From Microbacterium thalassium (lineage in GTDB: Bacteria > Actinomycetota > Actinomycetes > Actinomycetales > Microbacteriaceae), in assembly GCF_014208045.1 (NCBI RefSeq), contig NZ_JACHML010000001.1:930001-994000 (forward strand): DNA of 64,000 bases, read 5' to 3'. This document shows positions 56,564-64,000 of this stretch, one piece after another; position 1 is the first letter of the stretch; the number at the start of each line of letters is the position of its first letter. The position numbers and the translations under genes are program-made. The notes below the pieces were generated by a model. That model searched no databases. It was not told the DNA's origin and saw nothing but the letters and a program-made list of their open reading frames with translations.

Positions 56564-56582
56564 CTATTGAGAAAGTCAATAG
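56564..56582. promoter_or_regulatory. MarR operator between ligase and regulator
   Basis: CTATTGA-GAAAG-TCAATAG is a perfect 7-5-7 palindrome in an AT-rich patch of an otherwise G+C-rich region. It lies 45 bp before the ligase start and 37 bp before the marR start, well placed to repress both. Its minus-strand reading contains TTGACT, a possible -35 for the ligase. Confidence 0.75.
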
Positions 56583-56619
56583 TCCTTCTGTTCACCCATC
56601 TTGGGCTACGATGGCGCCC

Positions 56620-57087
56620 ATGCCTCGTGCCCGTGCCATCCCCGCCGCAGACCGGCTGACGTCTTCGCCGCTCGGCGACGACCTCAGCTTCCTGCTCGCG
56701 CGCGCCAACGCGATGTCGGTGGCCGAGGTGAACGCCGCGCTCGCCGAACACGGCCTGAAGGTGCGCGCCTTCGCGGTGCTCGCGATCGTCGCCGACGATG
56801 TCCGTCCGTCGCAGCGTGAGCTCGCCGACTTCCTCCGTCTGGACCCGAGTCAGATCGTCGTGCTCGTCGACGATCTGGAGCGGCGCGGGCTGGTCGAGCG
56901 TCTCCCCGACCCGGACGACCGCCGCGCGAAGGTCGTGGTCGCGACCCCGGCCGGGGAGCGGCTCGCGGCCGACGCGCGCGCCGCGGCGAGGGCGGCCGAC
57001 GACCGCACGTACGCCGCGCTGACACCCGCCGCGCGCGAGCACCTCACGGGGCTGCTTCGCCGCATCGCCATCGACGACGTCGGCTGA
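56620..57087 (+). CDS. MarR-family regulator
   Basis: A 155-aa MarR protein: 'SQRELADFLRLDPSQIVVLVDDLERRGLVERLPDPDDRRAKVVVATPAG' contains the HTH and wing with the conserved 'DxRxxxxxxT' shape. The ATG at 56620 is 7 nt after TACGAT (leaderless type); the ATG at 56611 overlaps that hexamer. It is divergent from the acyl-CoA ligase with a shared palindrome. Comparable regulators (CouR/FerR type) respond to hydroxycinnamoyl- or other CoA thioesters; ligand identity is inference. Confidence 0.9.
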   Translation: MPRARAIPAADRLTSSPLGDDLSFLLARANAMSVAEVNAALAEHGLKVRAFAVLAIVADDVRPSQRELADFLRLDPSQIVVLVDDLERRGLVERLPDPDDRRAKVVVATPAGERLAADARAAARAADDRTYAALTPAAREHLTGLLRRIAIDDVG

Positions 57088-57124
57088 CCCGCGGCGCGGG
57101 CGGCCCGGCTGTGACCGTCGGTGA

Positions 57125-57139
57125 CACACGGCTCGTGTG
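57125..57139. promoter_or_regulatory. Palindrome at the MetE-like gene promoter
   Basis: CACACG-GCT-CGTGTG is a perfect 6-3-6 inverted repeat about 17 bp upstream of TAGGCT (57156-57161), the probable -10, which is 6 nt before the ATG. It would cover the -35 region. No regulator is assigned. Confidence 0.45.
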
Positions 57140-57167
57140 CGGCTCGTGCCGGGCGTAGGCTCGCGAC

Positions 57168-61397: not shown

Positions 61398-61434
61398 CGC
61401 ATCGGACCAAGACGACGACGTCGAAGGAGACATC

Positions 61435-62844
61435 ATGGCCGACAACCTCCAGGAGCTGCTCGACGAGCAGGGGAACATCGTGCAGATGCTCCGCGACTCG
61501 AAGCTCGGAACCTACATCTATCCGGTCGTTCCCGCCGAGTTCAGCAACTGGCGCCGCGAGCAGAAGTCCTGGCGCGAGACCGCCGTGCTGTTCGACCAGT
61601 CGCACCACATGGTGAACCTGTTCATGTCGGGACCCGAGGCGATCAAGCTGATCAGCGACACGGCCATCAACTCGGTGGCGAACTTCCCGGTCGACACCGC
61701 CAAGCAGTACGTGCCGACCTCCTCGACCGGCGGCGTCATCGGCGACGGCATCCTCTTCCGCGAGGCGGAGGACGAGTACGTGTACGTCGGCCGCGCGCCG
61801 GCGGCGAACTGGCTGCAGTTCCACGCCGAGACCGGCGGCTACGACGTCGAGATCCGCTACGACGACCGCTCGCCGTCGCGCCCCTACGGCGAGGCCGTGC
61901 ACCGCGAGTACTACCGCTTCCAGATCCAGGGCCCGAACGCGTGGGCCATCATCGAGAAGCTCAACGGCGGCCCGATGGAGAAGGTCAAGTTCTTCCACAT
62001 GGGCCACATGACCATCGCCGGCGAGCAGGTCCGCACGCTCCGCCACGGCATGGCGGGCGCCCCGGGCCTCGAGCTGTGGGGACCCTACGAGCAGCACGGC
62101 AAGATCCGCGAGGCGATCCTCGAGGCCGGTGCCGAGTTCGGCATCGAGCCCTGCGGCTCGCGCGCCTACTCGTCGAACACGCTCGAGTCGGGCTGGATCC
62201 CCTCGCCGCTCCCCGCCATCTACACCGGCGGCGAGATCGAGCGGAAGTTCCGCGAGTGGTCGGGCGCCAAGAGCTACGAGGCCATCAACGCCCTCGCCGG
62301 GTCGTTCGTCTCGGACGACATCGAGGACTACTACCTGAACCCGTGGGAGCTCGGCTACGGCTCGTTCGTGAAGTTCGACCACGACTTCATCGGCCGCGAG
62401 GCGCTCGAGAAGATCGACCCGTCGACGCAGCGCAAGAAGGTCACGCTGGCCTGGAACGACGAGGACCTCGCCAAGGTCCTCAGCTCGCCCCTGGACCGCG
62501 AGGGTCCCGGCTACCAGTTCTTCGACCTGCCCAACGCGAACTACGGCTCGTCGAACTTCGACGCCGTCATCGACGCCGACGGCAACACCATCGGCCTGTC
62601 GCTGTTCACGGGCGTCACCGCGAACGAGAAGCGCGGTCTGTCGCTGGCGACCGTCGACGCCGACGTGCCGATCGGCGCCGAGGTGCGCGTGGTGTGGGGC
62701 GAGCCGAACGGCGGGTCGGGCAAGACCACCGTCGAGCCGCACGAGCAGATCGCCGTGCGCGCCATCGTGAGCCCGGTGCCCTACGCCGAGACCGCGCGTA
62801 CGGAGTACCAGGGCGGCTGGCGCACGGCCGCCGCAACGGCCTGA
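61435..62844 (+). CDS. ligM: LigM-type tetrahydrofolate-dependent aryl O-demethylase
   Basis: A 469-aa GcvT/aminomethyltransferase-fold protein closely resembling LigM/DesA of Sphingobium SYK-6 throughout ('[24 protein letters not shown]', '[17 protein letters not shown]', '[19 protein letters not shown]', '[24 protein letters not shown]'). From memory, the LigM residues His60, Arg122 and Tyr247 fall at His58, Arg120 and Tyr245 here. It would move the methyl of vanillate, 3-O-methylgallate, syringate or a related methoxyphenol to THF, giving 5-methyl-THF and a catechol. The choice among those substrates is not decidable by eye. The promoter and duplicated operator are upstream and a strong terminator follows. 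Confidence 0.88.
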
Positions 62845-62863
62845 CCGGCGGGACCGGCTGACG

Positions 62864-62896
62864 CGAAGGGGGCGGATGCTGCATCCGCCCCCTTCG
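62864..62896. terminator. Strong hairpin after ligM
   Basis: A perfect 14-bp stem (62864-62877 with 62883-62896) with a 5-nt loop lies 20 nt after the ligM stop. It separates ligM from the following ligase gene. Confidence 0.85.
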
Positions 62897-62984
62897 TCGT
62901 GCGCGCGGAGTGCGCGCAGATCGGCCTCCTGCCCGCCGGAAGGACGCATTCCGAGCGGGGGTGCGGCGGGTCAGACTATGGGCC

Positions 62985-64000
62985 ATGCGTGCCCACTACG
63001 CCGATGTATGGCAGGCGGTCGCCCGAGCCGTGCCCGATCGCTTCGCGATCCGCACCCAGGACGACGCCTGGACCTATGAGCGCTTCGCGCGCGAGGCGGG
63101 GTCGCTCGCCGCGACCCTGCAGCGTCAGGGCATCCGCTCCGGCGACGCCGTCGCGATGCTGCTGCACAACCGCCCCGAGTTCCTGATCACGCTGTTCGCG
63201 TGCCTGGCGACCGGCATCACGCCGGTGCCCCTGAACTTCCGGCTGCGCGCCGGCGAGATCACGGCGCTCCTGGACGACTCCGGCGCCGAGGCGCTGCTGT
63301 ATCCGACCTCGCTCGCTTCGGTGGCGGGACCGGCGGCCGCGGAGGCCGCCGACGACATCCTGCTCATCTCGATCCCCGACGACGAGACCGAGCCGCTGCC
63401 GGGCACCGCATGGGCGGATGCCGTCGCCGGCGACGAGCCGCTGCCGGCGGCCGCGCCCGACGACGCCGAGCTGTGGATCTACACCGGCGGGACGACCGGG
63501 CGGCCCAAGGCGGTGCGCTGGGACGAGCGGGATCTGTTCGTGGCGCAGATGGTGCCCACCTATTCGCTGACCGACGTGCCCTGGCCGGAGACCGTCGACG
63601 ACGCCGCGCGGATCGCGGCGGATCCGTCGACGCCCCGGATCGTCAACCTGCCGCTCGCGCCCTTCATGCACGGCACGGCGCTGACGACCTCGATGAACAC
63701 GCTGACACTCGGCGGCACGGTGCTCGTGACCTCGTCCGCGCGCCTGGACGCCGAGGCGGCCGTACGGTTCGCGAACGACGAGGGTGCGACGCGCATCATC
63801 GTCGCCGGCGACGCCGTCGCGATCCCGCTGGTCGAGGCCGCGAACCGCCTGGGGGTCGGCCTGCCGACCGTGACGTCGGTCATGAGCTCGGGCATGCGGT
63901 TCAGCCCCGAGACGAAGCGGCGCCTGCACGAGCTGGGAGACCTGTCGATCTTCGACCTGCTCGCCTCGACCGAAGGAGGCGTGTTCGCGGCCACGACGAC
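62985..64000 (+). CDS. AMP-forming acyl-CoA ligase, N-terminal part (runs off window)
   Basis: Open from ATG 62985 to the right edge (338 codons). It starts 'MRAHYADVWQAVARAVPDRFAIRTQDDAWTY' and has 'AVAMLLHNRPEFLITLFACLATGITPVPLNFRLR' and the P-loop 'LWIYTGGTTGRPKAVRWDE', so it is an acyl- or aryl-CoA ligase related to FadD-type enzymes. It follows ligM's terminator, so it has its own promoter; GACTAT 5 nt before the ATG is a weak candidate. The context again suggests activation of an aromatic or phenylpropanoid acid. The C-terminal domain is outside the window. Confidence 0.85.
   Translation, partial: MRAHYADVWQAVARAVPDRFAIRTQDDAWTYERFAREAGSLAATLQRQGIRSGDAVAMLLHNRPEFLITLFACLATGITPVPLNFRLRAGEITALLDDSGAEALLYPTSLASVAGPAAAEAADDILLISIPDDETEPLPGTAWADAVAGDEPLPAAAPDDAELWIYTGGTTGRPKAVRWDERDLFVAQMVPTYSLTDVPWPETVDDAARIAADPSTPRIVNLPLAPFMHGTALTTSMNTLTLGGTVLVTSSARLDAEAAVRFANDEGATRIIVAGDAVAIPLVEAANRLGVGLPTVTSVMSSGMRFSPETKRRLHELGDLSIFDLLASTEGGVFAATT

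Follow-up and report, generated by a model that had tools for sequence, protein, structure and literature searches.

Organization of the locus

The stretch of DNA analysed here (the window) comprises 64,000 nucleotides of the actinobacterium Microbacterium thalassium and corresponds to bases 930001-994000 of a single-contig genome of 3.70 Mb; annotation covered the window beyond its first 40 kb. Its last part contains a gene for a predicted aryl O-demethylase of the LigM family that would depend on tetrahydrofolate (THF), termed LigM1, and, on the opposite strand, a gene for an extradiol dioxygenase of type I, which is predicted to cleave gallate. The original prediction, made from the sequence of the window, had placed within 9 kb a LigM homologue, an extradiol enzyme, an acyl-CoA dehydrogenase, two acyl-CoA ligases, a MarR regulator and a MetE-like methyltransferase, and all of these genes, the ligases being AMP-forming, were located where predicted or close to it (Table 1). 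The gap between the demethylase and the dioxygenase genes, for which a shared operator had been postulated, indeed holds two inverted repeats.

Identity and distribution of LigM1

With 905.5 bits, LigM1 exceeds the cut-off of the NCBIfam LigM model (NF047885; 580), whereas it stays under that of DesA (618.6 against 800) and far under those of GcvT, DmdA (40.6 against 410) and sarcosine oxidase. It matches the solved LigM structures (PDB 5tl4 and 5x1i) at about 9e-214 (5tl4: 9.4e-214) over 467 residues and is identical to them in the alignment at Y29, Y31, Q57, H60, R122 and Y247, which we take to be the catalytic and binding positions of LigM, with Tyr247 as the catalytic residue; the conservation of catalytic positions claimed before was thereby recovered. 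A phylogenetic check against GcvT and DmdA had been proposed as well. In a tree of 133 rows, computed by a quick method with GcvT as outgroup (DmdA was compared by model only), LigM1 groups with LigM and not with GcvT, which lies far outside. The clade of LigM1 (37 rows, support 99) consists of Microbacteriaceae and Micrococcaceae where named, whereas a second LigM of the same genome (LigM2, 1036021-1037427) groups with the LigM of SYK-6 (support 88, not starred). Other branches hold two DesA-like paralogues of the genome. At the level of sequence, LigM1, whose identity to Microbacterium proteins reaches 89%, is confirmed as a member of the LigM family of THF-dependent aryl O-demethylases.

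Among 198 Microbacterium genomes, 51 contain a LigM/DesA-family match at 1e-100 and 48 a gene of the LigM1 type (at least 77% identity, including one partial match in G151 and one split match in G091). Since a LigM-type match is also reported for a Micromonosporaceae genome in the available part of PMC9296663, LigM is ordinary in actinobacteria at the sequence level, and the idea that it is unusual there had to be given up. Because LigM is common in Microbacterium, the presence of LigM1 is not new, and its extradiol partner is the point of interest.

The extradiol partner and its genomic context

The extradiol enzyme exhibits the VOC fold and a 2-His-1-Glu metal site, which still place it in the type I (VOC) superfamily despite a tyrosine (Tyr202) at the position of the usual catalytic histidine. 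The latter corresponds to His200 of HPCD, which we take to be the catalytic histidine of type I extradiol enzymes. The closest solved sequence, PDB 9wgj, is named a catechol 1,2-dioxygenase, reaches 435.6 bits with the profile of the clade and possesses the same tyrosine; its substrate and source were not found in the literature searched. AphC (7q2a) and 3lm4 (Rhodococcus RHA1), both type I extradiol dioxygenases, differ from the enzyme of the window in having the catalytic histidine instead of tyrosine, and we know of no oxalomesaconate partners of either.

Locus counts rest on 79 LigM loci with flanks, obtained from the best 80 of 568 matches, with genes of relatives called by a codon-score method. 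Thirty-five of them are of the LigM1 type (at least 77% identity) with flanks of up to 10 kb; several are cut by contig ends, so that misses may be overcounted there. Thirty of the 35 LigM1 loci include the extradiol gene. In 22 of the 35, one minus-strand block leads away from LigM1 and consists of a PIG-L protein (GalB type), a 4-carboxy-4-hydroxy-2-oxoadipate (CHA) aldolase (LigK), a 4-oxalomesaconate tautomerase (GalD) and the extradiol enzyme, with no other gene and no LigC-type gene in it. The NCBIfam score of LigK in locus L013 of Microbacterium kunmingense is 317 against a cut-off of 179, and that of GalD, with 441 against 440, is one bit over its cut-off. More distant relatives of the extradiol enzyme (51-53%) share their locus with GalD or LigK in L044, L046 and L063. 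The pair of LigM1 and extradiol genes is carried by named strains of Microbacterium, Agromyces, Sinomonas and Arthrobacter.

Across the 198 genomes, the extradiol gene was found in 48, GalD in 46, GalB in 45, LigK in 87 (counted at 1e-30, which also catches distant relatives), LigAB in 22 and PcaH over its cut-off in 79. The extradiol and LigM1 genes, each with 48 genomes, are common to 47 (G082 has the former only, G182 the latter only). The association proposed between LigM and a type I enzyme is supported. Extradiol and GalD genes coincide in 44 genomes, and all 48 extradiol genomes contain a LigK match, the best ones being 50-100% identical. GalB and GalD are both missing from four extradiol genomes, i.e., the present one (G000), G082, G148 and G151, all of which carry LigK and a LigJ-type gene (named from Amidohydro_2 and place); these two adjoin LigAB in G000, G082 and G151, and in G148, which possesses PcaH and no LigAB, they adjoin the extradiol gene. 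Common to the extradiol enzyme and all these settings is the route that leads on from 4-oxalomesaconate. Given the GalB/LigK/GalD block and its replacement by LigJ and LigK in four genomes, the product of ring cleavage is probably fed in at the level of 4-oxalomesaconate, and gallate is the probable substrate. In the SYK-6 scheme, as given in the accessible part of PMC6888825, LigM converts 3-O-methylgallate into gallate, which makes gallate the simplest substrate, and vanillate into protocatechuate. Gallate cleavage, missed by the original prediction, is the stronger reading.

The locus of G148 (L091:5885-16650) has its extradiol gene near LigJ-, LigK- and LigI-type genes, without LigAB, and near genes for a phenol-hydroxylase-like protein and a further FAD monooxygenase that looks PobA-like by eye. 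The LigI-type amidohydrolase, found there together with the LigJ and LigK types (no genome-wide search for LigI was made), would suit an enzyme that, like DesZ, cleaves 3-O-methylgallate itself, the product closing to 2-pyrone-4,6-dicarboxylate and entering via LigI. We regard this as improbable, though as the foremost of the alternatives, since LigM1 accompanies the extradiol gene in 47 of its 48 genomes, which fits demethylation before cleavage, and since the block of 22 loci consists of GalB, LigK, GalD and extradiol genes only.

The monooxygenases of G148 and those near the extradiol gene of G082, which may make protocatechuate, bear on another alternative, in which the enzyme would cleave protocatechuate, as a 4,5- or 2,3-dioxygenase, after the demethylation of vanillate, a reaction of LigM in the same SYK-6 scheme (PMC6888825, as far as available). 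However, PcaH over its cut-off occurs in 44 of the 48 extradiol genomes and LigAB in three of the other four (in the remaining one, G132, PcaH is matched partially, with 155 bits), such that 47 of 48 possess a separate ring-opener for protocatechuate; a LigC-type gene, moreover, is absent from the block of 22 loci. A supply of protocatechuate from LigM1 to the extradiol enzyme is disfavoured by this distribution of PcaH and LigAB, and we consider this alternative quite unlikely. In the 22 LigAB genomes, no PcaH match exceeds its cut-off; that of G182 falls short of it (263 against 296.4). As the LigM1-type gene of G182 is situated, without an extradiol gene, in a vanillate-like operon together with LigAB and LigC types, LigM1 is not bound to one substrate.

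Putative operator, regulator and methyl recycling

The inverted repeat ACCTATnnnnATAGGT is present in two copies between the LigM1 and extradiol genes; counting both strands, the window contains 4 matches, whereas shuffled versions of it give 0.01 on average. Copy 2 includes TTGACA, followed after a spacer of 17 bases by TAGCAT (read by eye), and these two motifs could represent the LigM1 promoter. In the whole genome there are three perfect sites and two with one mismatch, where 0.0016 and 0.156 are expected. The three sites outside the gap (0-1 mismatch) are situated 57 bases upstream of the MTHFR-like/PurU/LigM2 operon, about 118 bases upstream of folD (FolD: NF010789, 473 against 401) and, as a perfect copy, at the divergent starts of two genes for CynX-like MFS proteins (L108:7469-9963, genome 1057468-1059962); the latter, with 271 and 205 bits under the cut-off of 406, are possibly vanillate transporters. 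At up to two mismatches, 7 sites are found genome-wide as compared to 10 for a reversed-pattern control, and only the sites with 0-1 mismatch stand out. In relatives, the operator is found with 0-1 mismatch upstream of 22 out of 31 MTHFR-like genes, a number reached by no shuffle (the 31 have at least 55% identity and more than 150 bases upstream, more distant ones being dropped), and with no more than two mismatches upstream of 14 of the 35 LigM1 genes, where 0.06 are expected. Upstream of folD in LigM-negative genomes (11 of 12 readable; G009 over only 165 bases), the best match has five mismatches. A GntR-like box ATTGTCTACAAT, recognized by eye in GalB-LigM1 gaps of relatives, is absent from the LigM1-extradiol gap of the window.

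A PadR protein (L010:10303-10923) adjoins LigM2 and belongs to a cluster present in 24 loci, including that of this genome. Its best matches, PDB 6lg2 and 5z7b, are named PadR or predicted regulators and are presumably VanR. The PadR protein is the likely binder of the ACCTATnnnnATAGGT repeat. The repeat itself is present upstream of these genes and conserved.

LigM2 lies about 43 kb from LigM1 and has PurU and the MTHFR-like protein beside it. This second PurU copy, outside the window, scores 350.7 bits (TIGR00655); the MTHFR-like protein (L010:13372-14244, 290 aa) is weakly tied to its family (PF02219, 33.6 against 24). Such small MTHFR-like proteins, often found near PurU and LigM2, may be specialists in the oxidation of methyl-THF. 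The order MTHFR-like, FolD, PurU suggests a route from methyl-THF to formate. The MetE-like protein bears a zinc-type motif HxC...E...C in 16 of 16 sequences and occurs in 15 of the 35 LigM1 loci. A return of methyl groups through the MetE-like enzyme and PurU had been proposed for the window; the link to recycling is upheld. The PurU of the window is 15 kb away from LigM1, and the PurU/MTHFR-like pair stands beside LigM2.

Neighbouring genes

The remaining genes around the pair do not travel with it. Among the 35 LigM1 loci, neither the acyl-CoA dehydrogenase (at least 60%), nor CoA ligase A (at least 50%), nor the MarR regulator (MarR56) was found, and relatives of CoA ligase B (48-57%) occur in four. 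The 9-kb gene set, originally taken for a complete peripheral pathway, was therefore rejected as one pathway. The same genes bear on a further alternative, according to which the extradiol enzyme acts, like AphC or HpaD, on an alkyl- or side-chain catechol, with the ligases and the dehydrogenase processing a phenylpropanoid side chain: both kinds of genes neighbour the extradiol gene in the window and AphC is among the nearest structures, yet the genes conserved beside the pair are those of oxalomesaconate, and the catalytic residue of the clade is unlike that of 3lm4 and HPCD, so that this alternative is the least probable of all we considered. Relatives of CoA ligase A (73-81%) are situated near LigM2 operons in L066, L073 and L079, which may point to the use of hydroxycinnamates via vanillate.

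Table 1. Features of the window around LigM1 (positions within the window)
Feature	Position	Strand	Evidence
LigM1, predicted THF-dependent aryl O-demethylase (vanillate/3-O-methylgallate type)	61435..62844	+	NF047885 905.5 vs 580; PDB 5tl4; tree
Type I (VOC) extradiol dioxygenase, predicted gallate dioxygenase, Tyr202 replacing the usual catalytic His	60225..61253	-	
Operator copy 1, ACCTATATTCATAGGG	61338..61353	.	inverted-repeat search
Operator copy 2, ACCTATTGACATAGGT	61364..61379	.	inverted-repeat search
MetE-like methyltransferase (YxjG type, catalytic domain only), candidate methyl-THF user	57168..58280	+	NF005085 543 vs 313; PDB 1ypx 1.1e-118
PurU (formyl-THF deformylase), 15 kb from LigM1	45498..46382	-	TIGR00655 359.8 vs 285.95
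Acyl-CoA dehydrogenase, local, not conserved beside LigM1	58328..59512	+	
MarR-family regulator	56608..57087	+	PF12802 49.8 vs 27
CoA ligase A, divergent from MarR	54992..56551	-	
CoA ligase B, extends past the window to genome base 994586	62985..64000	+	
VapBC toxin-antitoxin pair, between acyl-CoA dehydrogenase and extradiol genes	59574..60175	-	VapC NF047959 123.7 vs 80

VapB was assigned by size and look only. In relatives, a Liv-type ABC transporter (LivG; Liv named by eye) is found near LigM1 in 23 of the 35 loci, and relatives of a DUF1932 NAD-binding protein (e.g., L008:14639-15427) in 16. Further upstream, the window contains a quinate/shikimate-type set (48151-53870) of a TRAP transporter, a shikimate dehydrogenase-like protein and a QuiC-like fusion of sugar-isomerase-like and HPPD-like domains (557 bits, under the cut-off of 1200), which probably leads to protocatechuate. 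An alpha/beta hydrolase-like protein, a Baeyer-Villiger-like monooxygenase and alcohol and aldehyde dehydrogenases are encoded at 40409-45424 and 47093-48085, with a phosphotriesterase-like protein nearby.

Elsewhere in the genome, an operon for protocatechuate 4,5-cleavage (L090:9257-16061, genome 724256-731060) includes a fused LigAB (872 against 837). Ortho-cleavage was rejected for this genome, in which one weak partial intradiol match (33.6 bits) and no PcaH match were found. The second of the DesA-like proteins (L099:8412-10874, genome 28411-30873), beside a divergent LysR-like gene (by eye), has threonine and tryptophan at positions 29 and 122, unlike LigM.

Proposed pathway

The best explanation, to which we assign a probability of roughly 0.7, is a module of LigM1 and a type I gallate dioxygenase with folate recycling under one PadR/VanR-like operator. 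Identities, gene order, co-occurrence and operator copies are the observations from which we infer its substrates, its flux, and the regulator with its target. LigM1 would transfer the aryl O-methyl groups of 3-O-methylgallate, and probably also of vanillate, to THF, and its partner would cleave the resulting catechol, gallate being the most likely one, to yield 4-oxalomesaconate. For most of the relatives examined, the GalB-, LigK- and GalD-type enzymes of the same block would complete the breakdown, whereas in this genome the LigJ-type enzyme and LigK of the protocatechuate 4,5-cleavage operon (724-731 kb) would replace the GalB/GalD route. One DesA-like paralogue (1001398-1002783) may supply 3-O-methylgallate from syringate. 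Methyl-THF would be returned via the MetE-like enzyme and also through formate, with the help of the MTHFR-like protein, FolD and PurU. Expression of LigM1 and its extradiol neighbour, of LigM2-PurU-MTHFR and of folD is probably switched on through a PadR/VanR-like repressor that acts on ACCTATnnnnATAGGT.

Several observations weigh against this module. The extradiol clade has tyrosine at the catalytic position in 37 of 37 sequences; the best family model, catechol 2,3-dioxygenase (TIGR03211), is reached under its cut-off (279.1 against 320.2); and among solved enzymes whose substrate is stated, the nearest are AphC (in complex with 4-ethylcatechol) and 3lm4 (titled dihydroxybiphenyl dioxygenase). 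No extradiol gene lies within the flanking DNA of five of the 35 LigM1 loci, the gene of G082 stands without LigM1 near FAD monooxygenases (PobA-like by eye), and G097 and G138 possess GalD without the extradiol gene, in G097 within a GalB-LigK-GalD block. The GalB, LigJ, LigI and LigC types are named by domain and place, with best NCBIfam scores, where there are any, under cut-off; for GalB, named from its PIG-L domain, the best NCBIfam match is a bacillithiol deacetylase. Likewise, the DesA-like paralogue assumed to act on syringate is under both family cut-offs (486.2 against 800 for DesA). The folD operator recurs at 0-1 mismatch in one of 18 LigM-positive relatives and with three mismatches in three more, and was rejected as a general rule. 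Finally, GalB and GalD were not found in this genome at the thresholds used, and its fused LigAB might suffice for the cleavage of gallate, in analogy to its Pseudarthrobacter relative PcaA, which used gallate at 44% of its activity according to the available part of PMC8431788.

Taken together with the insertion of VapBC beside the extradiol gene, the last two points could mean that this gene is a leftover in the present strain, GalB and GalD having been lost and gallate being opened by LigAB. The reading frame, however, is of full length and 93% like that of G151, the operator copies are intact, and a LigJ/LigK route for the cleavage product is present; we regard a leftover as unlikely, slightly more so than the direct cleavage of 3-O-methylgallate.

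In a wider sense, and with somewhat less confidence than for the module itself, we favour the view that the tyrosine-marked actinobacterial clade of type I (VOC) enzymes constitutes a second kind of gallate dioxygenase with an evolutionary origin of its own, which together with LigM1, DesA-like and Gal enzymes would form an actinobacterial pathway from syringate and 3-O-methylgallate to gallate, in which folate would be recycled (PurU, MTHFR-like, FolD) and a single PadR/VanR-like operator would govern expression. The breakdown of syringyl lignin and of tannin passes through gallate as a central intermediate. If the prediction is true, the type II gallate dioxygenases would have a non-homologous substitute in a type I enzyme whose catalytic residue is altered, and this would help to explain the use of syringyl aromatics by actinobacteria.

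Comparison with known systems

In the open-licence literature searched, as far as its texts were available, neither a type I gallate dioxygenase nor a worked-out pair of LigM and extradiol enzyme in actinobacteria was found. The gallate-cleaving enzymes described in the available parts of PMC3962378, PMC8431788 and PMC4250580 are of the type II (LigB) fold. The gallate dioxygenases DesB and GalA share the predicted reaction with the enzyme of the window, and DesB is co-regulated with ligM in SYK-6 (PMC6888825, available part); however, they belong to the LigB superfamily (PMC4250580 and PMC3962378, likewise), whereas the enzyme of the window exhibits the VOC fold in its place. It may act like DesB and GalA without belonging to their family.

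The LigM of SYK-6, a vanillate/3-O-methylgallate O-demethylase, is 66% identical to LigM1 and has the same active-site residues as listed above, but LigM1 falls into a clade separate from it and from LigM2 of its own genome. Also unlike ligM of SYK-6 (available part of PMC6888825), LigM1 does not form an operon with metF.

Concerning regulation, the PadR type is common to the protein beside LigM2 and to VanR of Corynebacterium glutamicum, which controls the vanillate genes, there the Rieske-type vanABK, in the accessible text of PMC8358305. In SYK-6, DesR joins ligM-metF-ligH with desB, the gallate dioxygenase gene (PMC6888825, available part); compared to this regulon, the arrangement in M. 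thalassium appears to follow the same logic with unrelated parts.

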